This document shows, one piece after another, positions 9,762 to 25,758 of a DNA stretch of 64,000 nucleotides. Origin of the DNA: Mesoflavibacter zeaxanthinifaciens DSM 18436 (GTDB lineage: Bacteria > Bacteroidota > Bacteroidia > Flavobacteriales > Flavobacteriaceae). Every line of letters starts with the position of its first letter. Position 1 is the stretch's first letter. The DNA lies in NCBI RefSeq assembly GCF_000422365.1, contig NZ_AULQ01000009.1, forward strand, positions 67,001 through 131,000, written 5' to 3'. A model generated the notes under the pieces. The model was not told the DNA's origin. It saw nothing but the letters and a program-made list of their open reading frames with translations, and did not search any database. The position numbers and the translations under genes are program-made.

Positions 9762-9786
9762 AAGTTTATAATTTTATTTAAAGTTA

Positions 9787-9817: not shown

Positions 9818-9840
9818 ACGTCTATATAACTTAGAAATCT

Positions 9841-9848
9841 TAATTTTG
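9841..9848 (+). promoter_or_regulatory. Candidate promoter -7 element for the rhodanese pair
   Basis: TAATTTTG fits TAnnTTTG and lies 18 bp before the ATG at 9867. No -33 TTG is found at the usual spacing. Confidence 0.4.
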
Positions 9849-9866
9849 AAAAAAAATATTTAAAAG

Positions 9867-10175: not shown

Positions 10176-10189
10176 ATAAACTTTTTAGT

Positions 10190-10567: not shown

Positions 10568-10571
10568 AAAT

Positions 10572-10602
10572 AAAAAGCCTTACATTTCTGTAAGGCTTTT
10601 TT
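10572..10602 (+). terminator. Intrinsic terminator
   Basis: A 13-bp perfect stem AAAAAGCCTTACA / TGTAAGGCTTTTT with a TTTC loop ends in a T-run. It lies 5 bp after the rhodanese lipoprotein gene. Confidence 0.92.
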
Positions 10603-10665
10603 GTTGAGATTTAATAAATTTAATAAAATGATTAATAGCCAAAAAATAAATTTAACTCAACAATT

Positions 10666-10755
10666 AGCTAACTTAAGATAATGGCTTCTCCCAAAACATT
10701 ATCTATGGTGTAAAGCTAACTTAATAGTTTAAAATAGTTTTACGGTAAACCGTAA
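10666..10755. repeat. Direct repeats, hairpin and palindrome downstream of the response regulator
   Basis: AGCTAACTTAA occurs at 10666-10676 and 10714-10724. Between them is a hairpin AGATAATG/CATTATCT (10676-10704). A perfect palindrome TTACGGTAAACCGTAA lies at 10740-10755. None has a T-run on the minus strand, so these are not ordinary terminators. Confidence 0.5.
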
Positions 10756-10765
10756 GTTGAATAAA

Positions 10766-11431
10766 TTAAATTAGACCAGTATCTTTTGTTATTGATACTA
10801 AGTGTATTGCGTTTTGAGCATTAAAGTATAATTTAAGTTTATTTATTTTTTTTTCTATTGAACTTAAACTGTTAGGCGATATATTTTTCTGTTTAAAATT
10901 ACTGCTAATTTCATCTTGAGATAATCCTATAGATAATAGTTTTAATAACTCGATGTCATAGTCTGTTATTTCTAAATGATTTTTAGATTTTAAACGATCA
11001 GAAATTGATGGTGAAAGATATGTTTTTTTATCATAAACATCAATTATGGCATTTTTTAATTCTTTTAAACCATTTCTTCCTTTACATACGTAAGCACTTA
11101 CTTTATTATTAGAATAAAGTTGTTTTACATTTTCTAGTCTATCTTCAATACTATAAACTATAATTTTTAAATCAGGATGTTCTTGGGTTAATGTATTAAT
11201 TAAATCTTTACCAGAATTAAATTTTTGTTCACGATGATCTGCAATAAAAGATAAGTCTGTAATAAATAATTGATAAGGGTTTTTGTCTAGATAACCTTTT
11301 TTTAATTTTAAATACGCATCATCACAATAAAGTGTTTTATCTATATTGCTAATATTTAAACTTTCAAGTGTGCTTAAAACACCTTGGCTAATACTATCTA
11401 AGTCATCAGAAATTAAAACTTTTTTGAACAT
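10766..11431 (-). CDS. Response regulator, NarL/FixJ type
   Basis: This 221-aa protein has a receiver domain (residues about 1-135) with acidic residues Asp9/Asp10, phosphoacceptor Asp59 in LFITDLSF and the conserved lysine in VCKGRNG (Lys117). A C-terminal LuxR-like HTH (about 155-215) contains LLKLLSIGLSQDEI and a recognition-helix region. The HTH is somewhat divergent. It follows the sensor kinase gene by 1 bp, so the two form a cognate two-component pair. The target genes are unknown. Confidence 0.88.
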   Translation of the reverse strand: MFKKVLISDDLDSISQGVLSTLESLNISNIDKTLYCDDAYLKLKKGYLDKNPYQLFITDLSFIADHREQKFNSGKDLINTLTQEHPDLKIIVYSIEDRLENVKQLYSNNKVSAYVCKGRNGLKELKNAIIDVYDKKTYLSPSISDRLKSKNHLEITDYDIELLKLLSIGLSQDEISSNFKQKNISPNSLSSIEKKINKLKLYFNAQNAIHLVSITKDTGLI

Positions 11432-11432
11432 T

Positions 11433-13055: not shown

Positions 13056-13138
13056 AAATCAAAAATATAACAATACGTATAAAGCAGGAATATTATTTTA
13101 AGAAATTTCTTTCAGAATAAATTATTAAAAAATAAATA

Positions 13139-13170
13139 AAACCCTGTAAAATAAACACTTTACAGGGTTT
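13139..13170 (-). terminator. Intrinsic terminator, inferred original ssrA terminator
   Basis: AAACCCTGTAAA (13139-13150) pairs perfectly with 13159-13170. On the minus strand it follows the partial ssrA 3' end at attL by 2 bp. That places it exactly where the terminator of ssrA would have been before the element inserted. Confidence 0.8.
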
Positions 13171-13172
13171 TA

Positions 13173-13188
13173 TGTGGAGTCGGAGAGA
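13173..13188. repeat. attL: duplicated 3' end of ssrA
   Basis: TGTGGAGTCGGAGAGA is identical to 25362-25377, the 3' end of the tmRNA gene. Downstream the sequence diverges (ACCACT here, ATCGAA at the intact gene), as expected for an integrase core duplication. Confidence 0.92.
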
Positions 13189-13322
13189 CCACTTTAACTA
13201 AAAATCGCTCCTTACTCAAATAATTGAGTTTCCTTTAAAGCTGCTATTAAAATCAAAGGTTTGTAGTGTAAATCTTTAAAAAATACTTTTAATAGGTTTC
13301 GATTAGTTTGTTTTAATTTTAG

Positions 13323-13347
13323 TTTTACCGTACAAATGCCGTACATA
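13323..13347. repeat. Candidate integrase arm site, left
   Basis: TTTTACCGTACA...GTACATA matches 19 of 25 positions in direct orientation with 25282-25306 near the other end. It lies between attL and the int start, where arm-type binding sites are expected. Confidence 0.5.
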
Positions 13348-13378
13348 TTTTGTATATTGCTTTATCAATATAGGCAAA

Positions 13379-14659
13379 ATGGCAAGCGTAAATTTTTTAT
13401 ATCGCTCAAGCAAGAGCGAAGCGTATTTAAATATACGGCTTTTATTTAGGTTTCATGATTCTGAATTTAAAAAGGGTTACAAGGATATTGTTCTAGGAGC
13501 AAAGACTAAGCTCAAGGTTAGTGAGCATTACTGGAACAAGCAGCACAATCTAAAACGTGTTAAAGATGTTGAGGTTGTTAATAGGCAGTCAGAAGTTAAT
13601 GCAGAGCTTAACAGTATCAAAAGCTATGTTCTAGATGCTTTTGAAAAATCTGATCCAAGTAACGTTGATAAAGAATGGCTTGTTAGTGCTTTAAATGATT
13701 ATTACAGTCCTAAAACTAAAGCTCAAAAAATACCAGAAGATTTAATCTCGTTCATCAAATACTACATTGAAGAACGTCAAGAGGATATTTCAGAAGCTTC
13801 AATAAAAAAATTCAATGTCATCCGTAACAAAATGATTAGGATGCAAGCGGCTAGAGGTAAAACTATTTTAATTAGTGAAATAGGAGAAACTTTTAAGCAG
13901 GAGTTAATCAAATACTATAAAAAAGAAAAATATTCTCAAAATACTATACAAAGAGAGTTAGTGTTCATTAAGTCATTTTGCAAATATGCCAAAAAGAAAG
14001 GTTTGCCAACGCATCCAGAACTATTAGATCTCAAGGTAAAAAAAGAACCAGTTAAGAGTATATATCTTTCATTTGAGGAGCTTGAAAAAATTCAAAATAA
14101 AGAATACTCTAAAGAGCATCTTGATAACGCTAGAGATTGGCTAATAATTAGTTGTTATACGGGACAAAGAATTAGTGACTTTATGAGGTTTACATCTGAT
14201 ATGATAAGAGTAGAAAACGGAAAATCATTAATTGAATTCAAGCAGAAAAAAACAAACAAGTTAATGACTATACCTGTGCATCCAAAAGTGCAAGAGATAC
14301 TTAATAAAAGAGATGGACAGTTTCCTAGAGCAATTTCGGACCAGAAGTACAACGATTACATAAAAACAGTTTGTCAGTTAGCTAAGATAAATGATAAGGT
14401 TAGTGGTAAGGTACAAGCAAACATAGATCCAGAAGCAGATAAATCAAAAATTAGACGTGTACCTGGTAAATACGAAAAATGGAAACTTGTATCTTCTCAT
14501 GTAGGTAGAAGATCCTTTGCTTCAAATTTTTACGGACACAATAATATTCCAACCAGTTACTTAATTTATGTTACTGGTCATACTACAGAAGCAGCATTTT
14601 TAAATTATATAGGCAAGAGTAATAAAGATCTTGCGCTTGAATTAACTAATTACTTTTAA
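13379..14659 (+). CDS. int: Tyrosine recombinase / phage-type integrase
   Basis: This 426-aa protein has an N-terminal arm-binding region with an LNIRLLFRF-like strand, a SAM-like core-binding domain (about residues 115-215) and a catalytic domain. The catalytic residues are visible: Arg in CYTGQRISDF (about 263), HxxR in SSHVGRRSFAS (about 374), His in VTGHTTEAAF (about 400) and the nucleophilic Tyr in LNYIGKS (about 410). It lies 190 bp inside attL and should catalyse insertion into, and excision from, ssrA. The next gene begins 2 bp after it. Confidence 0.96.
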   Translation: MASVNFLYRSSKSEAYLNIRLLFRFHDSEFKKGYKDIVLGAKTKLKVSEHYWNKQHNLKRVKDVEVVNRQSEVNAELNSIKSYVLDAFEKSDPSNVDKEWLVSALNDYYSPKTKAQKIPEDLISFIKYYIEERQEDISEASIKKFNVIRNKMIRMQAARGKTILISEIGETFKQELIKYYKKEKYSQNTIQRELVFIKSFCKYAKKKGLPTHPELLDLKVKKEPVKSIYLSFEELEKIQNKEYSKEHLDNARDWLIISCYTGQRISDFMRFTSDMIRVENGKSLIEFKQKKTNKLMTIPVHPKVQEILNKRDGQFPRAISDQKYNDYIKTVCQLAKINDKVSGKVQANIDPEADKSKIRRVPGKYEKWKLVSSHVGRRSFASNFYGHNNIPTSYLIYVTGHTTEAAFLNYIGKSNKDLALELTNYF

Positions 14660-14661
14660 TT

Positions 14662-15444
14662 ATGAGTTTAGATAATCCAAATAAGATTAATCATTATATA
14701 TCTCAAACAATTTATGAATCAGAATTGTTAGCTGAGAAAGATGCTAAGAAAGAAATAAAACTATCGATTGAAAGTAACAATACTGATGAGATGAAGATGG
14801 TTATTGCAGAATATTCACAAATTAATAACCCATACAAATTATTAAATAGTGAATTTGAATTAAAAGTTAAAGATCCTTATAACTTCTTGAATGATACAGA
14901 TAGATTGAATTTTATAGCTGATGAAATTGCTGATAATTTCAATTATCAGTTTTTAATGGTTGATACAGGAAAAGATGCAAGAAGATTGTATAATCAAATT
15001 GATAACATACAAGATGTCGTTTATAGTACAAAAAAGCTAAAAATAAAATCAGAAACCTTTCAAAAGTATCTTAAAACTAAGATTAAACCTCAAGAAAGTT
15101 CAGTTGAAGGAAAACCCAAGAACCCACGAAAAAAACCAAAGTACAAAGAGTTTTTTGAGAGTATAGATGAACTAGCTCTATATTTATTTTATATAGAAGA
15201 GGAGGTAACTAAGTCAAACAATATGGATTTTGGTAAAAAGTGGGAATGTTCTGGTCACAAATTATATCAAAAATTTAATCGTTATAGACAAATAGGATAT
15301 AGAACACGTAGCTATGATTCGATAATAAAAGATAGAAATCATAAAAATAGATTAGAAAATGTAAAAAATGTTCTACCTGATGGAAAAAGGGTAGTTATAG
15401 AGACTGATCTAAAAGACTTTTTAAAAAATAGTAACTGGTTATAA
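14662..15444 (+). CDS. Hypothetical element protein (260 aa)
   Basis: I recognise no family. The protein is soluble, acidic at the N-terminus and Lys/Arg-rich in the centre (KPKNPRKKPKYKEFF, about residues 152-166) and C-terminal third. Tyr/Arg-rich segments (YQKFNRYRQIGYRTRSY) could bind nucleic acid. It starts 2 bp after int and so is co-transcribed with it. A perfect 22-bp palindrome covers its stop codon. Its position next to the integrase suggests a role in element mobility or regulation, but this is inference. Confidence 0.75.
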   Translation: MSLDNPNKINHYISQTIYESELLAEKDAKKEIKLSIESNNTDEMKMVIAEYSQINNPYKLLNSEFELKVKDPYNFLNDTDRLNFIADEIADNFNYQFLMVDTGKDARRLYNQIDNIQDVVYSTKKLKIKSETFQKYLKTKIKPQESSVEGKPKNPRKKPKYKEFFESIDELALYLFYIEEEVTKSNNMDFGKKWECSGHKLYQKFNRYRQIGYRTRSYDSIIKDRNHKNRLENVKNVLPDGKRVVIETDLKDFLKNSNWL

Positions 15445-15452
15445 CCAGTTAC
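15431..15452. promoter_or_regulatory. Perfect 22-bp palindrome, candidate operator
   Basis: GTAACTGGTTA followed by its exact reverse complement lies at the end of the 260-aa gene and 51 bp before the HTH gene. There is no T-run, so it fits a dimeric-protein binding site better than a terminator. Confidence 0.5.
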
Positions 15453-15502
15453 GCAAAAATAGCTAACCCATATTTGCACAGTAACGATAACAAAGTGCAA
15501 TT

Positions 15503-15766
15503 ATGGAAAATCCTTTCAAAGTTTTAGAAGAAAAATTATCTGGTATCGAGAAAATGATATCAGATATAAGAACAGCTAAACAGCAAAAGCCAAAAGACGA
15601 CGAAGATCTATTAACCAGAGATCAAGTATGTAAACTGTTAGATATTAACAGTACAACACTTTGGACATATACCAATCAAGGCAGACTTCAAGCCTATTCA
15701 ATTGGTAGTCGTAGATATTACAAAAAATCAGAAATAATGCAGGCACTAAAGCCTGTAAAAAAATAA
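15503..15766 (+). CDS. Helix-turn-helix (MerR/excisionase-type) DNA-binding protein
   Basis: This 87-aa protein has a short N-terminal coiled-coil (KVLEEKLSGIEKMISDIR) followed by a winged HTH_17-type domain (about residues 37-85): LLTRDQVCKLLDINSTTLWTYTNQGRL, then YSIGSRRYYKKSEI. This is the fold of Xis/AlpA-like directionality factors and is typically found beside tyrosine integrases in Bacteroidota elements. Its likely job is control of excision and/or transcription of the element. Whether it bends att DNA cannot be judged here. Confidence 0.88.
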   Translation: MENPFKVLEEKLSGIEKMISDIRTAKQQKPKDDEDLLTRDQVCKLLDINSTTLWTYTNQGRLQAYSIGSRRYYKKSEIMQALKPVKK

Positions 15767-15850
15767 AGCCATGAATACATTCCATACTCACGGCTTTAAT
15801 GCGGATTATTTCGCTTTTTGCGATACTGCAATATACAAAATTATACTGTT

Positions 15851-16585
15851 ATGAGTAATTCCAAAAATAAAAATAACAGTAAATATTTCAATTTTCCTGT
15901 TCAGTTTCTTACTGGTTTTTTGGAGAATCCAATTACAAGCTTAAACATAATTTGTAAGTATTGTTTGTATCATCATTCTCTCAAACTAAATAATAATAAA
16001 AAGATAGACAGGTTTATCGCAGCTACTTTCTATTTTGATTTAAGTTACGGTGATGGTGGTCATCAGGCGTATGTAGATGCTATGAATGATGCTGAAAGAA
16101 TCTATAATAATTCAATTGCTGAGCATGGAGAAAACCCGCCAAAAACAGGGCTTAAAATAGAGGTTTTTAAAAGGTTTATAATTGAAAATAAATCAAAATT
16201 TGACTATACCTGTTTGCTAGCTTTTCTAGCTTTAAAAAGTATTATAGGTAAAAAACCATATTGCAAAACAACTAATAACTACTGGTTGGCTAGAATGGAT
16301 GGGAAAACTCATTCAGTAAATGATAAATCAGAACTGTCAGATCAAATTCAAAAGTTTAGTAACGAGTATCAAACTAAAAAAATTAAATCAGAGCTTCAAA
16401 ATAGTTGGGGATTAATAACATATTCTAGATATACAAGAGGTTTTTACATTTCCTTTCAAATGAAATTAGAAGATTTAATTTATCAAGCAGAATTAAATAG
16501 AAAATCAACTTTAGATAAGCAAAGAAAACTTGAGCAAAAGATAGTTTTAGAAAGGGTTTTAAAAATGATTGAAGAGGGAAAATGA
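15851..16585 (+). CDS. Hypothetical element protein, possible replication/DNA-binding protein
   Basis: This is a 244-aa protein from ATG 15851; a TTG 33 bp upstream gives a longer version. No family is recognised with certainty. The middle segment LLAFLALKSIIGKKPYCKTTNNYWLARMDGK (about residues 132-162) and the later KSELQNSWGLITYSRYTRGFYISF (about 185-208) look like helix-turn-helix plus wing elements. Its position after the excisionase-like gene matches that of replication initiators or primases in satellites. It overlaps the next small ORF by ATGA. Confidence 0.7.
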   Translation: MSNSKNKNNSKYFNFPVQFLTGFLENPITSLNIICKYCLYHHSLKLNNNKKIDRFIAATFYFDLSYGDGGHQAYVDAMNDAERIYNNSIAEHGENPPKTGLKIEVFKRFIIENKSKFDYTCLLAFLALKSIIGKKPYCKTTNNYWLARMDGKTHSVNDKSELSDQIQKFSNEYQTKKIKSELQNSWGLITYSRYTRGFYISFQMKLEDLIYQAELNRKSTLDKQRKLEQKIVLERVLKMIEEGK

Positions 16586-16725
16586 CATCACGACCATATG
16601 AAGAGCAATACACGACCTATAAAAGAGATTTTGAAAACTGTTTTTTTACTGGTCAACTTATTCTCAAAAATATGACGAGCTATATAAATATACTATACAA
16701 AGAGCAATTAATAAGATTTAAATAA
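16582..16725 (+). CDS. Small hypothetical protein coupled to the preceding gene (47 aa)
   Basis: The ATG at 16582 overlaps the TGA of the 244-aa gene (ATGA), a hallmark of translational coupling. The 47-aa product begins MTSRPYEEQYTTYKRDFENC and ends YKEQLIRFK; it is Tyr-rich and polar. No family is recognised. The evidence is the overlap and a credible amino-acid composition only. Confidence 0.45.
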   Translation: MTSRPYEEQYTTYKRDFENCFFTGQLILKNMTSYINILYKEQLIRFK

Positions 16726-16778
16726 AAAGAGAGCGTAAATAAACTCGCGCTAAAAATTAAATTTTCAATTTATACACA

Positions 16779-17405
16779 ATGAAAAAAGAAGCAATTACAG
16801 AAGATCAATTTTTATGGAAAGATGAAAAATCCATAAAACAAGAAAAATCTAATATGGTTACAGCTAGTCTTAACCTTAACAGGTTTGTTAAAGAAGCTAG
16901 AAGTGTTCTAGGAGGAAAACTTTCAGAAGAGCAAATGATTAAGCTAAAAGATGAAAAATTCAATTATTTAGAAAAAGAAGTTAAAAAGCTTTTTCAGTTT
17001 CCTAACGCTTCTGATGAATTTAATTTAAATGCTCTAGGGATAAGTATAGAACCTTTGAGAAAGTATAACAGGGTTTACTGGAAAGGTTACGAATACGACA
17101 TCATTGATGAAGAGTTTGTACTAAAGGAAGATCAACCGATTTTAGAAAGGTATTATGCTTATGCCGATAATACTCAAAAAAAAGAAATGCTAAGAATAGC
17201 CAATACTATTGTTGAGGCCTTTAGAGATGCAAGAACAATAGGGATGGTTAGAAAAGATTATTTAGCAAATGTTTGTGTGGCTTTAAATGGGTTAGTAGTA
17301 ATTGAAGGAGATTCAAGAGGAATTGGTGATTGTGAGTTACTTGTTAATAAAAAAGGGATTGGATTGTTTAAACCCACAATTAGACAAAATTTCCTTGAAA
17401 AATAA
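16779..17405 (+). CDS. Hypothetical element protein upstream of the tape-measure gene
   Basis: This 208-aa soluble protein is not recognised. It has a Lys/Glu-rich helical first half (KLSEEQMIKLKDEKFNYLEKEVKKL near residues 50-72) and a compact C-terminal part with hydrophobic strands (LANVCVALNGLVVIEGDSRGIG). It precedes the tape-measure-like gene by 7 bp. In phages this slot often holds tail-assembly proteins, so a structural or assembly role is possible but unsupported by any motif I can name. Confidence 0.72.
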   Translation: MKKEAITEDQFLWKDEKSIKQEKSNMVTASLNLNRFVKEARSVLGGKLSEEQMIKLKDEKFNYLEKEVKKLFQFPNASDEFNLNALGISIEPLRKYNRVYWKGYEYDIIDEEFVLKEDQPILERYYAYADNTQKKEMLRIANTIVEAFRDARTIGMVRKDYLANVCVALNGLVVIEGDSRGIGDCELLVNKKGIGLFKPTIRQNFLEK

Positions 17406-17412
17406 TTAAATC

Positions 17413-20130
17413 ATGAATACAGAAAGAATTAAATTATTTGAAGCAGATATTGATGTAGATGGTATCATTAAAAAATCTGTTGATTTGAAAAAAGAGATTT
17501 ATAGCTTAAAGCTTGAGCAACAAAAGCTAAAATCTACAGTTGGAGAAACCAGTGAGGAATTTATTAAAACAGAGGCACGTCTTAAAAAAGTATCTGCTGA
17601 GTATAGATTAAACCAAAGACAAGTTGAAAACCTTACAGAAACTAACGGAAAATTATTAAGCGTAGAGCAAAAACTAACTCTTGCTCTTAATAAAGAAGTT
17701 TTGTCTATTGATGCTGCCAACAAAAATAACAAGGAACTTAAAAAGATAAGAAACCAGGTTAATATTGAAACCGAAGAGGGACAAAGAGCAATAGCAGAAA
17801 TTAACGAAAAACTTAACCGTAATACTGATATCATTAAAGGAAATGTTTCAGCATTAGAGGAGCAAAAAATCGGAATTGGTGGTTATAAAGATGCTATAAA
17901 AGAAGCTCTAGACGAAACCAATATTTTTAAAGATGGTTTAACTGGTGTAACAAATAATATTCTGGTCCTGTCGGAAAGATCAAAAGAAGCAGGTGGATCA
18001 GGTGCATTCTTAAAAAACTCTTTAAAATCTGCAGGTCAAGGATTAGTTTCTCTAACTAAAGCTGCAATTGGTTTTATAGCAACGCCTTTAGGAGCAACTT
18101 TGGCTATTCTGGTAGGTGCATTTGCTTTAATCAAAAGCGCGATGAACCGTAGTGAAGAATCAACTAATAAAATTAAACGTGCGTTTTCTGCTTTTCAAGG
18201 TATATCCAACGCGCTATTCAAAATTTTACAACCACTAGGAGAATTTTTAATTGATGGAATTGTTAAAGGTTTTGAACTTGCAGAAAAAGCAATCTACAAG
18301 GGTATTGAAGTTATAGCTTCTGGATTAGAGTTGTTAGGTTTTGAAGATGAGGCTAAAGCATTAAAAACTTTCAATGCTGAGGTTCAGAAAGGAGCAAAAG
18401 ATACCAAAGCATTAGCAGATGCAGAGGCAAGATTAGAGAAAGAGCAACGTAAAGCTCAACTTGTTCAGCTTGAATACCAGAAAGCAGCCGAAAAACTGAG
18501 ACAAATTAGAGATGATACAACTAAATCAATTCCAGAACGTATCCGTGCAAATGCAGCTCTAGGTCAAGTTTTACAAACTCAATTACAGAAAGAATTAGAA
18601 ATTGCTCAAGCAGCTTTAGAAGTAGCAAATTTACGTATTCAATCAGAGGGAGAAACCAAAGATGCACTAGATCAACAAGCTGAAGCTCTGACAACAATTG
18701 CAGATATCCAGGAACGAATAACAGGACAACAAAGTGAGCAAATTAGAGAACGTGTTGCGCTTCAAAAAGAGGCAAACGATCAAGTTAGAGAAGCTGCTGA
18801 AAAAAGAATAGAGAAAGCAGAACAAGAGCTTGAGTTTCTTAAAGAGCAAAGAAGATTTAACGAGCAGAATTTAGAGGAATTGAAATTTTTAGCAAATGAA
18901 GAAATCAAAATATTAGATAAAAAACTTGAATCTAAGTTACTCTCTGAGACTGAATATGCTACTGAAGTATTAAAGATTAACAATGACTTAAAACAGTTCC
19001 AAATTGAAGCTAATGAGACAGAATTAGGAAGAATAATTGAGTTTAATAATCGAAAAAATGAACTTCAAAATGAGATTGATTTAAGAAATATAGAAGATGC
19101 TAATCAAAGAGCAATAGCAAAAGCAGAACAGGACTATCAGAGACAGCTTTTAGAACTTGAACAACTAGAACTCAATGAGCAGCAAAAAACAGAATTACTA
19201 TCATTGATAGAGACTGAAAGAGGTCAGATTATTTCAGAAATTCAACAGAATATTCTGGAGGATAGACTTGCCAAAGAATTGGAAGTAAATAAAAGGCTTA
19301 TTGAATCTGATGAAACAACAGCCAATATTCGTGCGTCTTTAGCTCAAACATTGACAAGTACACTGACTGGTTTCTTAGGCGATAGCTTGGCGGCTAAACT
19401 AGCATCTATTGCGGTTGAAGCAGCAGCACAAGCAGGACTAGTAAAAATTGAATCAGCAGGTGCATCTGCAAGAGTGGCTTCTAATGTAGCAGCAGCAAAC
19501 GCAGCAGCAATTGCAGCTTCTCCATTAACAGCAGGTTTACCATTTACAGCGTTAAATACAGCTCAAGGTGCAGCTCTTCAAGCAAATATAGGAGTTTCAA
19601 CAGCTCAAGCAATTAGTAGAATTTTAGCAGGTGCAGCAATTAAATCAATTGGTACCATTGGCGGAAAAATTAAAAAGGCTGAGCATGGAGCTGTTATTGA
19701 TATTGGTGGTAAACGTCATAGTTCTGGAGGAACTAAGTTCTGGGGAGAAGATGGAACTGCTTTTGAAGCAGAAAAAGATGAAAAAATGTTTATTCTAAAC
19801 AGAAGAGCATCAGCAGCTATACAACCACTTTTATCTAAAATAAATCAACAATATGGTGGAGTTTCATTAGGAACAACTTCAAGTTACCTCCAATCTGGAG
19901 GACAGATACTAAGAGCGAATTCTAATGATAAAGTTGATTATAGCACGCTTAGTAATGTTATATCTGCAGCTGTAGAAAAAGGCTCAGAAATGGGATCGTT
20001 AAAAGGTGCGCTTGAGGGATCAAGACAAGGATCACTAGAGGGATCTTATAAAGGAAGTTCACAAGGAACTCATTCAGGTATTGCCGAAAGGATTGAAAAC
20101 GACAATATCGAAGCAGGAGCAAATTTTTAA
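17413..20130 (+). CDS. Phage tail tape-measure-like protein
   Basis: This 905-aa protein has the layout of a tape measure: N-terminal coiled coil (residues 1-165), a hydrophobic segment (about 210-242, with GFIATPLGATLAILVGAFALI), very long charged coiled coils (about 330-625), an Ala-rich hydrophobic region (about 641-750), a GG(K/T)-type stretch with RHSSGGTKFWGEDG, and a C-terminal run of GS-x-x units (856-891). In tailed phages such proteins set tail length and help DNA cross the envelope. It is the largest gene of the element, yet no other tail gene accompanies it. A coiled-coil surface or secreted protein is an alternative. Confidence 0.75.
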   Translation: MNTERIKLFEADIDVDGIIKKSVDLKKEIYSLKLEQQKLKSTVGETSEEFIKTEARLKKVSAEYRLNQRQVENLTETNGKLLSVEQKLTLALNKEVLSIDAANKNNKELKKIRNQVNIETEEGQRAIAEINEKLNRNTDIIKGNVSALEEQKIGIGGYKDAIKEALDETNIFKDGLTGVTNNILVLSERSKEAGGSGAFLKNSLKSAGQGLVSLTKAAIGFIATPLGATLAILVGAFALIKSAMNRSEESTNKIKRAFSAFQGISNALFKILQPLGEFLIDGIVKGFELAEKAIYKGIEVIASGLELLGFEDEAKALKTFNAEVQKGAKDTKALADAEARLEKEQRKAQLVQLEYQKAAEKLRQIRDDTTKSIPERIRANAALGQVLQTQLQKELEIAQAALEVANLRIQSEGETKDALDQQAEALTTIADIQERITGQQSEQIRERVALQKEANDQVREAAEKRIEKAEQELEFLKEQRRFNEQNLEELKFLANEEIKILDKKLESKLLSETEYATEVLKINNDLKQFQIEANETELGRIIEFNNRKNELQNEIDLRNIEDANQRAIAKAEQDYQRQLLELEQLELNEQQKTELLSLIETERGQIISEIQQNILEDRLAKELEVNKRLIESDETTANIRASLAQTLTSTLTGFLGDSLAAKLASIAVEAAAQAGLVKIESAGASARVASNVAAANAAAIAASPLTAGLPFTALNTAQGAALQANIGVSTAQAISRILAGAAIKSIGTIGGKIKKAEHGAVIDIGGKRHSSGGTKFWGEDGTAFEAEKDEKMFILNRRASAAIQPLLSKINQQYGGVSLGTTSSYLQSGGQILRANSNDKVDYSTLSNVISAAVEKGSEMGSLKGALEGSRQGSLEGSYKGSSQGTHSGIAERIENDNIEAGANF

Positions 20131-20152
20131 ACACTTAATAAATACAAATATC

Positions 20153-20332
20153 ATGTCTAGATATTCAAAAGAAAACAGAAAAAAATTGCATGATTCTATG
20201 CGAAAAAGAGAATTTATCAAAACAGCAAAAAGAACTGCTGATAATATGAGAAAGTCTATCCATAATGATAATAAAGACGGATATGATCCAGAAAGAGTTA
20301 AAGTTCTTAGAGAGGCTAGAAAAAAGAAATAA
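20153..20332 (+). CDS. Small basic hypothetical protein (59 aa)
   Basis: It starts at the ATG at 20153 (MSRYSKENRKKLHD); the longer frame from 20081 would overlap the tape-measure gene by 50 bp. It is extremely basic (about one-third Lys/Arg) and helical, and ends EARKKK. Nucleic-acid binding or a small virion/packaging accessory are both possible. It lies 22 bp after the tape-measure-like gene and 38 bp before the terminase-like gene, so it belongs to the same transcription unit. Confidence 0.6.
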   Translation: MSRYSKENRKKLHDSMRKREFIKTAKRTADNMRKSIHNDNKDGYDPERVKVLREARKKK

Positions 20333-20370
20333 GCAAAAAATATGTCATTTAATGTCCTATAAAAAGAAAG

Positions 20371-20826
20371 ATGAAAAATAGAGAGTTATCAGATAAGACT
20401 TTAGAGAAATACAAGCTTGTTATTGATGAGTGGTTTGTAAATGGATTTAACGGAACCAAAGCTTATCAGCAATTTTATAAACATGCCAAAAACTCAACAG
20501 CTGATTCTAATTTTAGAAAAATACTCGGAAATACTCGGATTCAGGAATACATTGAAGATAAGCGTAATAAGCTAATTGAAGAGCTTGAGATTACTCTAAA
20601 AAGACAGTTGTATGAATTGGAAGATTTAAAGGAGCGCTCTAAAGTTACAAGAAAGTATAGCACAGCAATTGATGCTATAAAGGAGCAAAACAAGCTTTTA
20701 GGATATTATGAAAAAGACAACTCTCAAAAGAGTATTGTGGTTGGATCGGATATAACACCAGAAGAACGCGAAGCAAGAATTAAGTTTTTGCTAAAAAAGA
20801 GAGAGCAAGGACTTAAGCGTAAATAG
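20371..20826 (+). CDS. terS: Terminase small-subunit-like protein
   Basis: This 151-aa protein has the small-terminase organisation: an N-terminal HTH-like segment (IDEWFVNGFNGTKAYQQFY...NSTADSNFRKILGNTRIQEYIEDK, about residues 13-66) followed by a helical oligomerisation region and the DAIKEQNKLLGYYEKD segment (about 105-120) that typifies Terminase_2 proteins. TerS recognises pac sites and hands DNA to the large terminase. No large subunit is present, which is the pattern of satellites that redirect a helper phage's packaging machine. A remnant of a lost prophage packaging module is the alternative. Confidence 0.75.
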   Translation: MKNRELSDKTLEKYKLVIDEWFVNGFNGTKAYQQFYKHAKNSTADSNFRKILGNTRIQEYIEDKRNKLIEELEITLKRQLYELEDLKERSKVTRKYSTAIDAIKEQNKLLGYYEKDNSQKSIVVGSDITPEEREARIKFLLKKREQGLKRK

Positions 20827-20828
20827 GT

Positions 20829-21035
20829 TTATTTTTTAAAACGAGAACTATTGCGTTTATCTATTAGCTGTTTAATGTGATCTTGAGAAAGTGGCTTTTT
20901 TAAATTAGAGCTGTCCGAACCACCAGACAGCTCCTCTCTAAGTATCGCAGCATCTTTTAATAAACGATGTGCGTTAGCCTCCATGCTTTCAATTAGCATT
21001 AATATTTTTTCTCTATCGATTTTATTTGACATCAT
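20829..21035 (-). CDS. Small helical hypothetical protein (68 aa)
   Basis: It starts MMSNKIDREKILM; a start at the second Met (21032) is equally possible. The first half is a helix with regular hydrophobic spacing (KILMLIESMEANAHRLLKDAAILREEL) and the tail is basic (HIKQLIDKRNSSRFKK). The gene overlaps the upstream HTH regulator by 14 bp, so they form an operon; it may be a partner or antirepressor of the regulator. It is convergent with terS, 2 bp apart. Confidence 0.6.
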   Translation of the reverse strand: MMSNKIDREKILMLIESMEANAHRLLKDAAILREELSGGSDSSNLKKPLSQDHIKQLIDKRNSSRFKK

Positions 21036-21282
21036 TTGTGATTTTATACATGATTTCAAATTCAATACCTAGATAATCACAAAGTTTAAATAGCCTACTG
21101 TTAGAAAGTCTTGGAGTAGATTGATTTCCTCCAGCTATGCTTTTAATGTTGTAATACTGAGTTCTGCTAATTTGGTATTCACTACTTAGAAGCATATCAG
21201 GATTTTTTAATCCTCTCTTTCTCATGTCTAAATCAATACTATTGATTAAAAGACTATAAAATTCTATTTCGTTTTTTATCAT
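21022..21282 (-). CDS. HTH transcriptional regulator, repressor-like
   Basis: This 86-aa Cro/CI-like protein has helices around MLLSSEYQISRTQYYNIKSIAGG (residues about 30-52) as the HTH and a short C-terminal LSNSRLFKLCDYLGIEFEIMY. It is too short to carry a protease or dimerisation domain of the LexA type. It faces a divergent gene (21364) across an 81-bp gap that contains two TACAA...TTGTA inverted repeats overlapping the divergent promoter. It is therefore the probable master repressor of the element. Confidence 0.75.
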   Translation of the reverse strand: MIKNEIEFYSLLINSIDLDMRKRGLKNPDMLLSSEYQISRTQYYNIKSIAGGNQSTPRLSNSRLFKLCDYLGIEFEIMYKITNDVK

Positions 21283-21300
21283 TCAACAAAGATAAAAAAA

Positions 21301-21335
21301 GTACAATTAATTTGTAGTACAAATATTTTGTACTA
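21301..21335. promoter_or_regulatory. Two tandem operators in the divergent control region
   Basis: The distal site is TACAATTAATTTGTA (21302-21316). The proximal site is a perfect 21-bp inverted repeat at 21315-21335: TAGTACAAA, spacer TAT, TTTGTACTA. Both share TACAA/TTGTA half-sites. The proximal site fills the spacer between the -33 and -7 elements of the plus-strand promoter, so a bound repressor would block RNA polymerase. Confidence 0.75.
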
Positions 21336-21341
21336 TATTTG
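21312..21341 (+). promoter_or_regulatory. Promoter of the divergent 91-aa gene
   Basis: TTG at 21312-21314, a 19-bp spacer, and TATATTTG at 21334-21341 form a full Bacteroidota-type promoter. The ATG follows 22 bp after it. Confidence 0.8.
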
Positions 21342-21363
21342 AGTGTAACAAAAAGCAAGTAAT

Positions 21364-21639
21364 ATGATAGAATCAGACTTAATTTCTACAGAAAGTATTT
21401 TAAAAAATCATCCTAACGTTTTGTATTCTAAAGAAGCGAACATAATAGGATCTCATATTGAAAAGCAAAAGGAGATTATAATTCTACCAGTTTACAAAGA
21501 ACTTACTGGAGATGAAATTGAATTCATTGCAAATCAATATAATATTAAAAATTACCAGGTTATTAAAAAGCAGCAATTATCAGCAGGAACAGGAGAAACG
21601 GATCAGTTTGACTGCTTTATTTATATAATAAAATATTGA
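21364..21639 (+). CDS. Hypothetical protein under repressor control (91 aa)
   Basis: No family is recognised. The small soluble protein is acidic (MIESDLISTESILKNHP), has a central strand-helix pattern (KEIIILPVYKELTGDEIEFIANQY) and a C-terminal hydrophobic strand (DCFIYIIKY). It is transcribed alone, divergently from the repressor-like gene, from a promoter overlapped by operators. That position is where Cro-like, antirepressor or replication-switch genes sit in phages and satellites. It ends about 100 bp before a terminator. Confidence 0.65.
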   Translation: MIESDLISTESILKNHPNVLYSKEANIIGSHIEKQKEIIILPVYKELTGDEIEFIANQYNIKNYQVIKKQQLSAGTGETDQFDCFIYIIKY

Positions 21640-21742
21640 ATTTTATTAGGTGTGAAAAGTAAATAAAATTGTATATTGTAATATATTACATTACTTTTTA
21701 AAAAGAGTTCTTATATACCTATATTGATTTAAAATTGTTTAG

Positions 21743-21772
21743 AGAGCCTATTGAAAAATAGGCTCTTTTTTA
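21743..21772 (+). terminator. Intrinsic terminator
   Basis: A 10-bp stem AGAGCCTATT / AATAGGCTCT with a GAAA tetraloop is followed by T6. It ends the 91-aa gene transcript. On the minus strand the tract after the stem is not U-rich. Confidence 0.85.
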
Positions 21773-21780
21773 TTTTTAAA

Positions 21781-23103
21781 TCAATTGTCAATGTGTTGAT
21801 GTTCGGATAGTATTATATTAGATGTTAAATTGTTTCTATGATCGCAGGGTTGGTTGATAATTAATTTTTCTGCAATTAATTTTACTATTTTAGCGTTAAC
21901 CGCATTTCCTAAAGCACTAAAACTAGTACTTAGATTTTCTGGTAGTTTTATTCCTTCCATACTTTGCAGAGCAGCTCCTTCTTCTGGAGATATATATCTG
22001 TTTTCCCAGCCTATTATTGGAACTTGAGTACTGACAGTTACTAAAGATGGGAATATGTCTGGTTTTTTTATTCTAACTCCTGAGGCTCTAAACTGTATAA
22101 TATAATCTTTTATGTTTCTTCTTGAGTCACCACAATTCCACTCAAGTTTTTGCCAACTAGAATTATTAAATTTTTTTATTTTCTTAATAACAGAATCTAT
22201 ATTTGTTTTATGTAATTGATAAAACTCCCTATTTTTTCTTATATAATTTTGTTTCCAAGTAGGGAAGACTTCTTGTTTAGTTCTTGCGTATGATGGTAAA
22301 TTTTTGAATTTATCCTCTCTTGTCATATTTTTTAAAGGAACACCGAAACTTCCTTTGCTTTTTCCTAAAGCCCAATTTGAAGAAGAATACGGTGTGCTAG
22401 TTTCGTAAGGATAATCAGCACCAAATTCCATAGCCCATATTGGAAATCCTGGTATTTTAGTTTTTTTAGGAAAAATATCTAAGAATTCTTGCCAAACATT
22501 TAAGACATGTTTTTTCTCTTCTTCTAATAGTCTAGTTTTGTGAGCTTGTCTTAAAAAGTCTTTTGTACTTTTTGTAAGAGTGCTTGTCTCTGGCCATTTG
22601 AAGTGATTTAGTCCATCTAGACATCCCACAATAAAAAGTCTTTCTCTATGTTGAGGTATGTTAAACTGATGGGGAGAAAATATTTTTTTATCAATAGAAT
22701 ATCCTAAATCTTCAAGTCTTAAAGAAATATAATCCCATGTTTTAAAGTCATCATGAGATTCTAGGTTTCTTACATTTTCTAAAATAAAATATTTAGGCTT
22801 ATGATAATTTAAAATTTCAGCTAGAATATCAAAAAAACTTCCGTTATTTTCGTCTTTTAATCCCTTTTGTTTACCAGCCTTAGAGAATGGCTGGCACGGA
22901 AAACCTGCACATAAGATTTCATGAGAGGGTATTTTATCTGGTGAAATAAGTCTAATATCTCTATTAACCTCAATATTATAATTTTCTTTATAAAGTTTTG
23001 CAAGGTTTTCCTTTTTCTCACTTGCAAATACACATTCATGACCCATTTTCGTCAAAGCGAAATGAAAACCTCCTAACCCAGCAAATAAATCAATAAATTT
23101 CAT
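21781..23103 (-). CDS. C5-cytosine DNA methyltransferase
   Basis: This 440-aa protein has the ordered Dcm motifs: I, FAGLGGFH (residues 7-14); IV, AGFPCQPFS with the catalytic Cys70; VI, ENV (109-111); VIII, PQHRERLF; a target-recognition region of about 180 residues; IX, RASGVRIKKPDIFPSLV; and X, LGNAVNAKIV. It methylates cytosine in a sequence-specific site that cannot be read from the primary sequence. It is the last gene of a three-gene cargo operon, 2 bp after a candidate nuclease, so it probably protects self DNA. Confidence 0.95.
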   Translation of the reverse strand: MKFIDLFAGLGGFHFALTKMGHECVFASEKKENLAKLYKENYNIEVNRDIRLISPDKIPSHEILCAGFPCQPFSKAGKQKGLKDENNGSFFDILAEILNYHKPKYFILENVRNLESHDDFKTWDYISLRLEDLGYSIDKKIFSPHQFNIPQHRERLFIVGCLDGLNHFKWPETSTLTKSTKDFLRQAHKTRLLEEEKKHVLNVWQEFLDIFPKKTKIPGFPIWAMEFGADYPYETSTPYSSSNWALGKSKGSFGVPLKNMTREDKFKNLPSYARTKQEVFPTWKQNYIRKNREFYQLHKTNIDSVIKKIKKFNNSSWQKLEWNCGDSRRNIKDYIIQFRASGVRIKKPDIFPSLVTVSTQVPIIGWENRYISPEEGAALQSMEGIKLPENLSTSFSALGNAVNAKIVKLIAEKLIINQPCDHRNNLTSNIILSEHQHIDN

Positions 23104-23105
23104 TT

Positions 23106-23927
23106 TTAATTAAATGTAGAGTTACACCATTCCAGAACTTCTGATCTGAGTCCTGTTTCTATGTCTTTGTTATATAGTGAGTTATATATTCTTAACCTAT
23201 CAAATAACATACCGTAGGTGGAAACTTGTTTTCCAAATTCTTTCAAATCAACATAATCAACAGTTGAAATAGATTCTATAATATTTTTGCTATACCAATA
23301 AATATATTTTGTCCACCTTTCTAGAGGTATCTGTTTCTTTTTACTCCAGTGTTTTCCTGCGGCACATTGTTGTAAAACATATAGATTAGAGGATCTATTA
23401 TCGTTAAATTTTTTATAGCCTATTACATCTACTCCGTCATCTTTATAATCATTATTAGCTTGCATTCCTCTATGCTCATGAAATAGATAAGATAACTCAT
23501 CTAAGTATTCGTTTAGGTTTTTGTTTGCAGGAAAACCTAATATGTATACATCTCCATTAATAAAATTTTTTAAAGCATAAGCGGAAATTTTTTCAAATAG
23601 TTTAGTCCCTGTGATATCACTGCTAGCTCCATATAAAGAGAAGTGTATACATAAAAAATATTCAGGTACTTCATTCCATTTTTTTAAAGGAGTAATTATG
23701 TTATTTTCAACTGAATATAAAGATCTATTAAGATATTTATAGCTTCTATTTTCAATTGTGGCGATCCAGCTATCAATGTCTTCTTCTTTAACCTCTCTCT
23801 CATAAGAAAGAGTTCTGTCAACTAAATCTCTAATGATAGATTTAGTTATGGGATTTGCATATAGCAATAAATTATATTCAAGGCATTCTATTTCCCTGCC
23901 TACAATAAAACCTACAAAATCTTCCAT
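23106..23927 (-). CDS. Candidate restriction endonuclease-like protein
   Basis: This 273-aa protein matches no family I can name with confidence. Residues 163-192 read DDGVDVIGY, then 15 residues, then LYVLQQCAAGKHW. That is the spacing of a PD-(D/E)xK nuclease core (Asp164/Asp167, then a strand), but with QxC where (D/E)xK is expected and Lys192 nearby. It sits between a ParB-like gene (1-bp overlap) and a C5 methyltransferase (2-bp gap). That context is the main reason for proposing a restriction role. Confidence 0.6.
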   Translation of the reverse strand: MEDFVGFIVGREIECLEYNLLLYANPITKSIIRDLVDRTLSYEREVKEEDIDSWIATIENRSYKYLNRSLYSVENNIITPLKKWNEVPEYFLCIHFSLYGASSDITGTKLFEKISAYALKNFINGDVYILGFPANKNLNEYLDELSYLFHEHRGMQANNDYKDDGVDVIGYKKFNDNRSSNLYVLQQCAAGKHWSKKKQIPLERWTKYIYWYSKNIIESISTVDYVDLKEFGKQVSTYGMLFDRLRIYNSLYNKDIETGLRSEVLEWCNSTFN

Positions 23928-25123
23928 TATTTCAAATTACTCTTTAATGCATTTAATAGTTTTTCGAGCTCATCAATTTGATTTAATAATTCTTGATCTC
24001 CACTGTATTTGTAAGCAAATTGTAATGATGTTTGTAAAGCCCTGGATGCTTTACTTAAATTTTGAGACAAGTAGTCACGCTCACCATTAGTTCTTTCATA
24101 AGCTTCATCGATATTTTTATACTCCCTTAAATACCTTACCGCATCATCACTAGTAACTATATGGCTTAGTTTACTCGTTATTTTTCTAGAATCAGTTAAT
24201 ACAGGTTCTATTCCCTTGTTTCTATTCCCAAATACCCAAGTTAGAACCTCTTCAAACTCTTCGAGTTTATTTTCAGGAACTAAATAATCTTCATTGAAAT
24301 CAACTTTTTTATAAGGGTCTACACCAATATAATCTCTAATAGAACCTGAATTATAAAGGACCTGCAGCAGAGAGAATCTATTTAAAATAGGTTTTACATC
24401 ATAGTTTTCTAGTCTGTTTTCTGCTTCTCTAAATATTTTGTATGTTACATATTGTTTTCTTAAAACGTCTGATCTGTCGGCTACAACTTGCTGTACGTTT
24501 TTAATAGCTTCATTTGTCTGAGAACCTTCTTCAACTTTTTCCTGAATCATTTCAGCTACATAAGCAGCCTTAGCAAATGCTTCCCATTTTAATAATCCAG
24601 CTATATGTCTTACACCTAAATACGGAGAAACATCTTTCTTGTTTTTGTAAAGAATACTAGGTATGACAGATATATCTTTTCTTATATCAGGATCATCAAG
24701 TTTTGGATAAAGTTTGTTTATTCCTAAGTCTTCTCTTAAGTTGTTATTTAAGAGTAGTTTAATAGTTGACACTCTTCTGTTTCCTTCAACAACAGTAAAT
24801 GAAATTTCCTTTTTATCAATAAGATCTTGAAGCTGTTTTTCTAACTCTTCATTACTATAGTTATCATAAGAAAAATTATGTGGTAAATCTTTAGGAACTA
24901 CTATTATAGGCTCCTCATCAAAATAACCATTTTCTATAAGGGAAAGAGCTATAACTTCAGTATCAAAGTGTTGATACATGACTGATATTAAGTCTAATTC
25001 TGTAAAATCTTCATCTTGAACATACTGAACTAATCTTGGATTACTTTCATCTAAATGTATAAGATCTATGGGTATTTCTAATTGAGGTTTTTTTCCTCCT
25101 TTACCTGCGAATGTTTTTGTCAT
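23927..25123 (-). CDS. ParB/Srx-fold domain protein
   Basis: The 398-aa protein opens with a ParB-type N-terminal domain: IPIDLIHLDESNPR (about 17-30), a helical insertion, then FTVVEGNRRVSTIKLLL (EGNRR at 113-117), which corresponds to the nucleotide-binding ENxxR/GNRR box of ParB/Srx proteins. The rest is helical, ending in a Leu-rich coiled coil. No ParA is nearby, so plasmid-style partition is unlikely. It is the first gene of an operon with a candidate nuclease and a C5 methyltransferase and probably acts in the same defence module, perhaps as an NTP-binding switch. Confidence 0.8.
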   Translation of the reverse strand: MTKTFAGKGGKKPQLEIPIDLIHLDESNPRLVQYVQDEDFTELDLISVMYQHFDTEVIALSLIENGYFDEEPIIVVPKDLPHNFSYDNYSNEELEKQLQDLIDKKEISFTVVEGNRRVSTIKLLLNNNLREDLGINKLYPKLDDPDIRKDISVIPSILYKNKKDVSPYLGVRHIAGLLKWEAFAKAAYVAEMIQEKVEEGSQTNEAIKNVQQVVADRSDVLRKQYVTYKIFREAENRLENYDVKPILNRFSLLQVLYNSGSIRDYIGVDPYKKVDFNEDYLVPENKLEEFEEVLTWVFGNRNKGIEPVLTDSRKITSKLSHIVTSDDAVRYLREYKNIDEAYERTNGERDYLSQNLSKASRALQTSLQFAYKYSGDQELLNQIDELEKLLNALKSNLK

Positions 25124-25151
25124 TTAAAGCCTTTTAATTGGACAACTACAA

Positions 25152-25159
25152 CAAATATA
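25152..25159 (-). promoter_or_regulatory. Candidate promoter -7 element of the ParB/nuclease/methyltransferase operon
   Basis: On the minus strand TATATTTG fits TAnnTTTG, 28 bp before the ATG. TTA instead of TTG occupies the -33 position with 19-bp spacing (25179-25181). Confidence 0.5.
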
Positions 25160-25180
25160 TTATAATTGGCCATAATTTTA

Positions 25181-25196
25181 ATACAGAATACTGTAT
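25181..25196. promoter_or_regulatory. Inverted repeat upstream of the cargo operon promoter
   Basis: ATACAG-AATA-CTGTAT is a 6-bp-arm inverted repeat at and just upstream of the -33 region. It could be an operator controlling the restriction-like operon. It differs from the TACAA/TTGTA operators at 21301-21335. Confidence 0.4.
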
Positions 25197-25281
25197 AAGT
25201 TAGTAAAATTAGAGTGAATGCAAAGTGTTCTTAGTAAACTTATTTTTCATAATTTTTTGACTAATAAGTTTTAATATCTAA

Positions 25282-25306
25282 TTTTACTGTACATAAATCA
25301 TACATA
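25282..25306. repeat. Candidate integrase arm site, right
   Basis: TTTTACTGTACA...ATACATA is a direct partner of 13323-13347 (19 of 25 identical). It is 55 bp inside attR. Confidence 0.5.
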
Positions 25307-25318
25307 ATCATAAAAAAT

Positions 25319-25359
25319 AAAACCTTAATCAGTTTATTTTCAATTGATTAAGGTTTTTT
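25319..25359 (-). terminator. Element-borne terminator behind the restored ssrA
   Basis: AAACCTTAATCA / TGATTAAGGTTT form a 12-bp stem, with A/T-runs on both sides. On the minus strand it follows the ssrA 3' end by only a few bases. Since it lies inside the element, it replaces the native terminator left at 13139-13170. Confidence 0.85.
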
Positions 25360-25361
25360 TC

Positions 25362-25377
25362 TGTGGAGTCGGAGAGA
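25362..25377. repeat. attR core within ssrA
   Basis: This is the second copy of TGTGGAGTCGGAGAGA, here part of the intact tmRNA 3' acceptor and T-arm region. Confidence 0.92.
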
Positions 25378-25758
25378 ATCGAACTCTCGTCCAAACAAGT
25401 AACCAAATAGCTTTCTACACGTTTAGTCTTTTCTTGTGTTTTCATCAGCAACCTGGTTAAAGACAACCTAGTTACTGCCTATCTTCTTAAAGTTTCGATT
25501 TAGCATCAAAGCGCTACCAAATCTATATTGACATTTACGATGCCTCAAAAAGGAACGCCGCCAATCAAGGCTTTCCAGAGACATTTAGCTTGCTTACCTT
25601 GTAAGCCTAGGCGTAATCTTACTATAATTCAGATTAGGCAGCTAAAGCGTAGTTATTCTCGCCGTTTAAAAAGTTGACCTAGCGTTTTACGTGTCTCATA
25701 GTCGTTACACGACGTGCTTACCATTTAATTAATCTCGCTGTCAAAACCAGTCGACCCC
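25364..25758 (-). ncRNA. ssrA: tmRNA (transfer-messenger RNA)
   Basis: tmRNA rescues ribosomes stalled on broken mRNA and tags the nascent chain for proteolysis. The 5' end GGGGUCGACUGGUUUUGACAGC starts at 25758. The tag frame GENNYALAA-stop runs 25663-25634. The 3' end has the T-arm GAGAGUUCGAUUCUCUC and acceptor strand CGACUCC-A, which pairs with 5' GGGGUCG (one GU). CCA is not encoded (CAG follows), so it must be added post-transcriptionally. Its 3' end serves as the attachment site for the element and is regenerated by it. Confidence 0.95.

Follow-up and report, generated by a model that had tools for sequence, protein, structure and literature searches.

A 12-kb element in the ssrA gene of Mesoflavibacter zeaxanthinifaciens, probably a phage satellite carrying its own terminase small subunit and tape-measure protein

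The stretch of DNA analysed here (hereafter the window, 64,000 nucleotides) comes from Mesoflavibacter zeaxanthinifaciens DSM 18436 (contig NZ_AULQ01000009.1, positions 67,001 to 131,000) and contains, at its ssrA gene, an integrated element encoding an integrase, a terminase small subunit (TerS) and a tape-measure protein (TMP). The element is probably a phage satellite of Flavobacteriaceae, packaging and transfer being deduced from its genes only. The relatives identified through its genes p208, p255 or TerS plus p78 were small integrase elements with no recognised capsid gene, which supports the satellite reading proposed in a first-pass annotation of the same DNA. Seven other elements with p208, four contigs with p255 and three further elements of the TerS type were found, a recurrence that speaks for a family and not for one broken prophage. 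No close copy of the window element was present among these relatives.

The ends of the element are marked by the 16-bp repeat TGTGGAGTCGGAGAGA, which occurs exactly twice in the window (13173-13188 and 25362-25377), the copies being separated by 12,189 bp. With up to three mismatches allowed, 0.07 matches were expected by chance, and two matches were obtained in 0 of 100 shuffles. The right copy forms the 3' end of the transfer-messenger RNA (tmRNA, ssrA) gene. The ssrA duplications described in the first-pass annotation were confirmed as an exact repeat, with the small correction that the right copy extends to 25377; the integrase was present just inside attL, as described there, and the excisionase-type helix-turn-helix (HTH) gene was identified by profile match as encoding an HTH_17 protein. 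As is characteristic of satellites, the element is thus discrete and integrated, with an integrase gene and att repeats. The features that carry the argument are the following (aa, amino acids; ORF, open reading frame):

13173-13188, no strand: attL, 16-bp copy of the ssrA 3' end
13379-14659, plus strand: tyrosine integrase, 426 aa (Phage_int_SAM_5, Phage_integrase; phrog_1, 1.9e-26)
14662-15444, plus strand: p260, between int and xis, no family assigned
15503-15766, plus strand: excisionase-type HTH_17 protein, 87 aa
15851-16585, plus strand: p255, 244 aa from this ATG (longest ORF 255 aa, from 15818)
16779-17405, plus strand: p208, core gene, with relatives in seven other small integrase elements
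17413-20130, plus strand: TMP, 905 aa, homologous to phi46:1 gp21
20153-20332, plus strand: p59, 59 aa, with a C-terminal tail match to a protein of phage L009
20371-20826, plus strand: TerS, 151 aa (PF03592, 9.4e-6; phrog_51, 1e-11)
20829-21065, minus strand: p78, with a 60% identical homolog in element L060
25362-25377, no strand: attR, within the ssrA 3' end
25363-25758, minus strand: tmRNA (ssrA) gene, the integration target

Rightward, the gene order is int, p260, xis, p255, a 47-aa ORF and then p208-TMP-p59-TerS, where p208 is the first gene of an operon with intergenic gaps of 7, 22 and 38 bp. TerS is followed by the leftward p78 and HTH genes, a 91-aa gene and a leftward cargo block. 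One terminator-like hairpin lies outside the left repeat (13173-13136, minus strand) along the direction of ssrA transcription and is probably the displaced host ssrA terminator; a second one, scored on the plus strand, occupies 25319-25357, immediately inward of the right repeat.

The tape-measure-like gene of the first-pass annotation encodes a full-length TMP, a call that was made because the protein is homologous to gp21 (849 aa) of Cellulophaga phage phi46:1, to which it aligned over its full length (40% over residues 1-853). This gp21 is annotated as tape measure and as a virion protein by tandem mass spectrometry. The window TMP also aligned lengthwise with a 946-aa protein of the IMG/VR phage L009; its best PHROG was phrog_21537 ('virion structural protein', 2.8e-15), and the TMP PHROGs were weaker (8e-4 and 1.5e-3). 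A satellite-encoded TMP, a feature of the phage-inducible chromosomal island-like elements (PLEs), is thus present in the window. Four loci found by TMP similarity (L020 to L023) were prophage stretches by eye and were used as phage context only. The terminase-small-subunit-like gene was likewise borne out by its PF03592 and phrog_51 matches. The protein showed 59% identity to a TerS of the IMG/VR contig L066 and 40% to the TerS of prophage contig L059, and its relatives include gp01 of Polaribacter phage P12002L. Since contig L059 holds homologs of both proteins, the window TerS and TMP could suit one helper type.

Window proteins were scanned against Pfam (15 proteins), PHROGs (10), NCBIfam (10) and PADLOC (7), and no capsid, portal, large terminase subunit (TerL), tail-tube or conjugation family was recognised among them. 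This agrees with the first-pass annotation, which had seen no capsid, portal, large terminase or conjugation gene. The element therefore has an incomplete virion gene set, as satellites do, and a TerS without TerL, a trait of some phage-inducible chromosomal islands (PICIs). The sign of a deleted prophage named in that annotation, relatives in which capsid and TerL genes are complete and arranged in the same order, was looked for and not found.

The core gene p208 defined the largest group of relatives. Matches were obtained in 8 of 397 genomes of the family, 5 of 395 of the order and 5 of 395 of the class, sets that overlap and each of which includes this genome. Eight elements were retained (the window, L019, L024, L025, L026, L028, L034 and L035). 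A scan of genome contigs with p208 gave two loci, both already among the known matches, and the scan of IMG/VR gave none. The match in G021 (E 4.1e-6) was dropped because what matched was a 56-residue C-terminal segment of a chromosomal protein of 704 aa (L027), that in G519 (E 9.7e-4) because it fell in a transposable-phage-like locus (L036), and those in G040:C25, G770, G1106 and G1122 because they were weak and within long frames. The L028 match (G256, E 5.5e-5), weaker than that of G021, was retained because it is located beside int and other element genes. No significant family was found for p208 in Pfam, PHROGs, NCBIfam or PADLOC, its profile had no match among PDB sequences, and its AlphaFold model had a pLDDT of 39, too low to be used. 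Neither p208 nor p260 or p255 gave a tblastn match among 50,697 phage records (limit E 1). The possibility that p208 is a known phage protein was rejected, as it is unmatched in phage records and in family libraries. Comparison of p208 with the p246 family (L060, L076, L082, L083) gave an hhalign probability of 51% (E 1.5e-4), which is only suggestive of a distant relationship.

Repeats resembling att sites bound six of the eight p208 elements; they are 14-50 bp long, lie at ssrA or tRNA genes and are 6.9-13.6 kb apart:

Window: 16 bp at ssrA
L024: 15 bp at tRNA-Leu
L025: 48 bp at tRNA-Arg
L026: 14 bp at ssrA
L034: 21 bp at tRNA-Leu
L035: 50 bp at tRNA-Asn

No att repeat was accepted for L019 or L028, the sole candidate in L028 (14 bp, without a tRNA gene) being left uncounted. 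The L026 element (5955-14179), from a different genus, is inserted in the tmRNA gene next to the same neighbour gene as the window element, named by eye as alanine dehydrogenase. In L025 (Kriegella sp. EG-1), extra partial att copies were seen in the region 17197-17900 (15 bp at 17404 and 11 bp at 17885), which suggests repeated integrations at one tRNA-Arg gene.

TerS-like genes were present in five of the eight p208 elements and belong to three types, namely PF03592 (window), DUF5681-like (L024, L026 and L035) and phrog_5193 (L028), which had no BLAST match to one another at E 0.01; a recognised TerL was present in none of the eight. Homologs of the DUF5681-like genes lie directly upstream of terL, and overlap it, in phages MW202710 and MW202462, and the phrog_5193 homolog of Flavobacterium phage FCV-1 is gp01, three genes ahead of terL. 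The gene positions in MW202710 and MW202462 support the DUF5681-like proteins as TerS. In Bacteroides phage BF1-TP2, however, the 6 kb inspected on either side of and including the homolog contain no annotated terL, and the matches in enterobacterial phages were weak and to hypothetical or unannotated proteins. In the seven elements other than the window, 55 of the 79 listed ORFs were scanned, 7 integrases, 7 p208 genes, 6 HTH genes and 4 small ORFs being omitted. The 18 Pfam families found at E 1e-4 in these 55 ORFs included no capsid, portal, TerL or relaxase; the statement on missing capsid families covers all 18 Pfam families and the best 25 of 63 PHROG families.

Homologs of p255 were found in four IMG/VR contigs, L066, L076, L077 (=L082) and L078 (=L083). 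Among 299 genomes of the family, p255 was found in two, this one included; in G327 it stands with int and xis on a 5.5-kb contig that ends beside p255 (L081). Its AlphaFold model (pLDDT 41) was too low to be used, and our guess is that this core gene encodes a replication or activation factor. Genes for a TMP and TerS-like proteins were present in all four IMG/VR contigs, and PF05065, the one capsid family tested, matched in none of the four. Contig L066 (12.3 kb) encodes an integrase, Xis, p255 (46%), a pair of TerS-like proteins from different families, a 1162-aa TMP and a 150-aa protein with a weak tail-completion match (phrog_5377); a 16-bp repeat occurs at position 420 and again where the contig ends. 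In L076, two DUF5681-like genes, a head-morphogenesis protein and a 1332-aa TMP were found, and L077 and L078 encode portal, head-morphogenesis, TerS, TerL and TMP. The TMPs of the four contigs are homologous to one another. Identities between the L076 and L082 TMP genes at the three codon positions were 0.58, 0.70 and 0.35, indicating constraint at the protein level; part of this divergence may predate the capture of the gene. In L083 (9452-13435) the TMP is present as two ORFs of 1054 and 216 aa, the result of either an interruption or an assembly error. The window integrase showed 50% identity to that of L082 and 44% to that of element L024, in which the place of p260 between int and xis is occupied by a 227-aa gene.

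A search of 395 family genomes with TerS found five, namely this one, prophage contig L059 and the elements L060, L061 and L062. No capsid gene was recognised in the last three, of which ten selected proteins were scanned with PHROGs and the remainder were read as ORFs. L060 shows the TerS-p78-HTH arrangement of the window and has a 764-aa virion structural protein (phrog_15220, 2.3e-90) ahead of TerS. Its att assignment is weak (13 bp), and its TerS gene (9843-10399) contains an in-frame stop, so this copy may be decaying. Repeats of 46 bp at tRNA-Arg, 19.0 kb apart, delimit L061, which encodes a TMP (phrog_23108, 2.8e-47) and a tail protein (phrog_6195, 3.8e-31), with a TerS-like fragment after them. 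L062 has 49-bp tRNA-Ala repeats 8.6 kb apart and a TerS gene; no TMP was seen in it. The TMPs form three groups without direct BLAST similarity to one another, the L061 and L066 groups sharing some TMP PHROGs.

The small gene p59, between TMP and TerS, has its own ATG. Its C-terminus GYDPERVKVLREARKKK is identical at 11 of 17 positions to the C-terminus GYDPDKVREARENRKKK of a 404-aa protein of phage L009, the single phage on which this match is based. This level was reached in 0 of 200,000 shuffles, and of the C-termini of 442 ORFs in the compared phage loci the runner-up had 5 identities. For the whole p59 no significant tblastn match was found in phages. The 404-aa protein is presumed to be a protease/scaffold because its gene precedes the presumed major capsid gene and because homologs occupy the same place in Bacteroides/Parabacteroides phages; these proteins are called hypothetical in their records, and the label does not come from database annotation. 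In the same phages a homolog of the window TMP gene stands immediately before the protease/scaffold-like homolog. As regards redirection of capsid size, what was observed is the tail that p59 shares with the presumed phage protease/scaffold. p59 is a candidate capsid-assembly modifier, and the tail match fits a leftover and a functional mimic alike.

Several observations weigh against the satellite interpretation. A TMP was found in only two of the eight p208 elements, and no convincing TerS was found in L025, L019 or L034. The p255 contigs (L066, L076, L082 and L083) have TMPs of another type than that of the window; they come from metagenomes, lack end repeats and may be fragments. Both L082 and L083 encode TerL and portal, and all four contigs have TerS ahead of TMP, the phage-like order; the line to prophages is therefore not sharp, and the argument from gene order given below covers the window and not the family. 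Probing this genome with TMP, Terminase_3 (PF04466) and Phage_portal (PF04860) revealed no helper prophage, which leaves the helper hypothetical; across the eight p208 genomes a single Terminase_3 match, below the cut-off, was obtained, in G164. The GC content of the window TMP gene (0.353, as compared with 0.295-0.312 in its neighbours) reflects either recent import or amino-acid composition. In L082 and L083, no phage match of scaffold type was obtained for the small proteins encoded next to the TMPs, and the idea that they carry tails like that of SaPI1 CpmB was dropped.

One important question is whether the element is a reduced prophage, derived from a phi46:1-like siphophage that lost its head, portal, TerL and most tail genes, with TerS, TMP and the end of the protease/scaffold gene left over. 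The co-occurrence of both phage homologs in prophage contig L059 is consistent with this, and so are the position of p59 after TMP, which is that of the protease/scaffold-like gene in Bacteroides/Parabacteroides phages, the retention in p59 of only the protease/scaffold tail, and the larger virion gene set and phage-like TerS-TMP order of L082 and L083. However, in the phage and prophage contigs L059, L069 and L072 the order is TerS-TerL-...-TMP, from which the TMP-p59-TerS order of the window is not derivable by simple deletion; the gene order of a parent phage, expected of a degenerate prophage, is thus not seen in the window. TMP precedes TerS only in the window and in L061, and L060 has another structural gene in that place. 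Moreover, phage records contain no match to the non-virion core genes, two of which (p208 and p255) were found again in other small elements, and the ORFs are intact, with short operon gaps and a separate start codon for p59. We therefore regard a reduced prophage as unlikely.

It is still less probable, and in our opinion improbable, that the element is a defence-carrying integrative island that moves by general transduction or by conjugation in trans and acquired TerS and TMP accidentally. Integrase-bearing islands are common in tRNA and ssrA genes, the cargo is defence-like, and packaging was deduced and not observed, all of which would suit such an island; the recurrence of three TerS-like types across the family, the presence of TMPs in several elements, the tight p208-TMP-p59-TerS operon and the lack of a relaxase family in the scanned proteins argue against it. 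We give very little credit to a very small autonomous virus with an unrecognised shell protein, such as p208 or its p246 counterpart. The possible distant relationship of those two families would favour it, whereas p208 has only about 200 aa, its model is mostly helical, though unreliable at its pLDDT, and no tail-tube or baseplate genes were recognised. A phage satellite is thus the explanation that we retain.

The element was compared with known systems. In PLE11 of Vibrio cholerae, according to the available text of PMC12987554, chimeric tails consist of the satellite's own TMP, tail assembly chaperone (TAC) and baseplate hub together with the other parts of the helper, as established by microscopy, western blot and mass spectrometry. 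The same report of satellite tape measures in PLEs, from March 2026, states that deletion of tmp reduced transduction by 96% in PLE1 and 99% in PLE4 and that tmp genes also occur in PLE-like elements and in a sampling of capsid-forming PICIs (cf-PICIs); its main text contains no word beginning Bacteroid or Flavobacter. The window element resembles the PLEs as a satellite with its own TMP, but PLEs belong to another phylum and the window element has TerS. No TAC or baseplate hub was recognised in the window proteins with Pfam and PHROGs (profile scans only; PLE proteins were not compared directly).

With the Staphylococcus aureus pathogenicity islands (SaPIs) and other PICIs the element shares its size, int with regulators, and, as in some PICIs, TerS without TerL (layout as in the available part of PMC6092414). 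It differs from them in its TMP and its Bacteroidota host, and its regulators are known only as generic HTH matches: where PICIs have Stl, AlpA and Pri-Rep for regulation and replication, what was seen in the window is a generic HTH repressor, the HTH_17 Xis and the unassigned p255. The available part of that survey contains neither 'tape measure' nor any word beginning Bacteroid or Flavobacter. According to the available text of PMC5644958, SaPI1 CpmB and the 80alpha scaffold have a C-terminal motif in common, and CpmB competes with that scaffold. This is the precedent for reading p59 as a functional mimic; p59 is similar in being a small protein with the C-terminal tail of a scaffold-type protein. 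The phi46:1-type siphophages have the same type of TMP, and prophage L059 combines homologous TerS and TMP, but these phages have head, tail and lysis genes, another gene order and no match to p208 or p255. The cf-PICIs make their own capsids. Some of them have tmp (PMC12987554, available text), and L082 and L083 have portal, TerS and TerL; on the other hand, no capsid gene was recognised in the window, and the PF05065 result for the IMG/VR relatives was negative.

In Riemerella anatipestifer, a flavobacteriacean, a 50-kb defective prophage island excises and circularises, and an earlier 10-kb island is mentioned (PMC9745183, available text, in which PICIs appear only in the introduction); the marine elements in the available part of PMC12324425 are unrelated. 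No description of a satellite family of Bacteroidota was found in the literature searched, mostly without subscription papers. A satellite with a TMP is of a known kind, and the lineage and the mix of TerS, TMP and p59 appear to be new.

On the satellite reading, Int and Xis would integrate the element into ssrA and excise it, as its anatomy suggests. A Cro/C1-type repressor acting on paired operators would keep it quiet until a helper phage arrives, an incoming helper being proposed because no helper prophage was found in the genome. Replication would depend on a core module that, at a guess, includes p255. The satellite TerS would join the helper TerL and mark satellite DNA for packaging into the helper shell, in the manner of those SaPIs and PICIs that have a TerS, as is suggested by the occurrence of several TerS-like types without TerL across the family. 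By analogy with PLEs, the satellite TMP would replace that of the helper and give chimeric tails; more speculatively, p59 may compete with the helper scaffold, as CpmB does, and p208 may be an assembly or packaging factor. The methyltransferase module would be defence cargo.

More tentatively, and with somewhat less than even confidence, we propose that p208/p246 and p255 mark a widespread, undescribed class of Bacteroidota satellites that pirate only the bulk virion parts (shell and tail tube) and themselves supply those that determine which DNA is packaged and how it enters the cell: TerS, TMP, in some cases also TerL, portal and head-morphogenesis protein, and here a scaffold-tail mimic, the modules being swapped to suit helpers. 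Swapping is proposed because of the three TerS types and the three TMP groups. If true, a Bacteroidota family with TMP and TerS would suggest that tail piracy is a strategy of satellites in general and would add a major phylum, with marine and gut members, to those with well-marked phage satellites; p208, p255 and TerS without TerL would be handles for finding such satellites, and scaffold mimicry of the CpmB kind would have a second, independent example in the p59 tail.

The remaining features of the element concern regulation and cargo:

21025-21282, minus strand: Cro/C1-type HTH protein, probable repressor (weak profile match, PF13443, 0.067)
21300-21318 and 21316-21334, no strand: two overlapping operator-like palindromes, read by eye
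21334-21341: TATATTTG, a -7-like box after the palindromes
21364-21639, plus strand: 91-aa protein, behind the operators
21781-25123, minus strand: cargo block with a C5-cytosine methyltransferase (21781-23103), a 273-aa protein and a 398-aa protein

The palindromes lie between the HTH gene and the divergent 91-aa gene, and TATATTTG resembles what we take to be the Bacteroidota -7 promoter motif. The first-pass annotation had described a repressor-type HTH gene with tandem operators; the paired palindromes were seen by eye, the repressor is backed by the weak PF13443 match, and the repeat search listed no direct-repeat family at 21300-21334. In the cargo block, the 398-aa protein matches the PDC-M38A and PD-Lambda-5_A profiles. 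The block is a probable restriction/defence module and may be an undescribed restriction or defence system. Other elements have cargo of their own, as named by eye from their ORFs: a KAP-like NTPase in L034 (6241-8139), and in L062 (11604-15130) a large ATPase-like gene with two further genes, one of them restriction-endonuclease-like.

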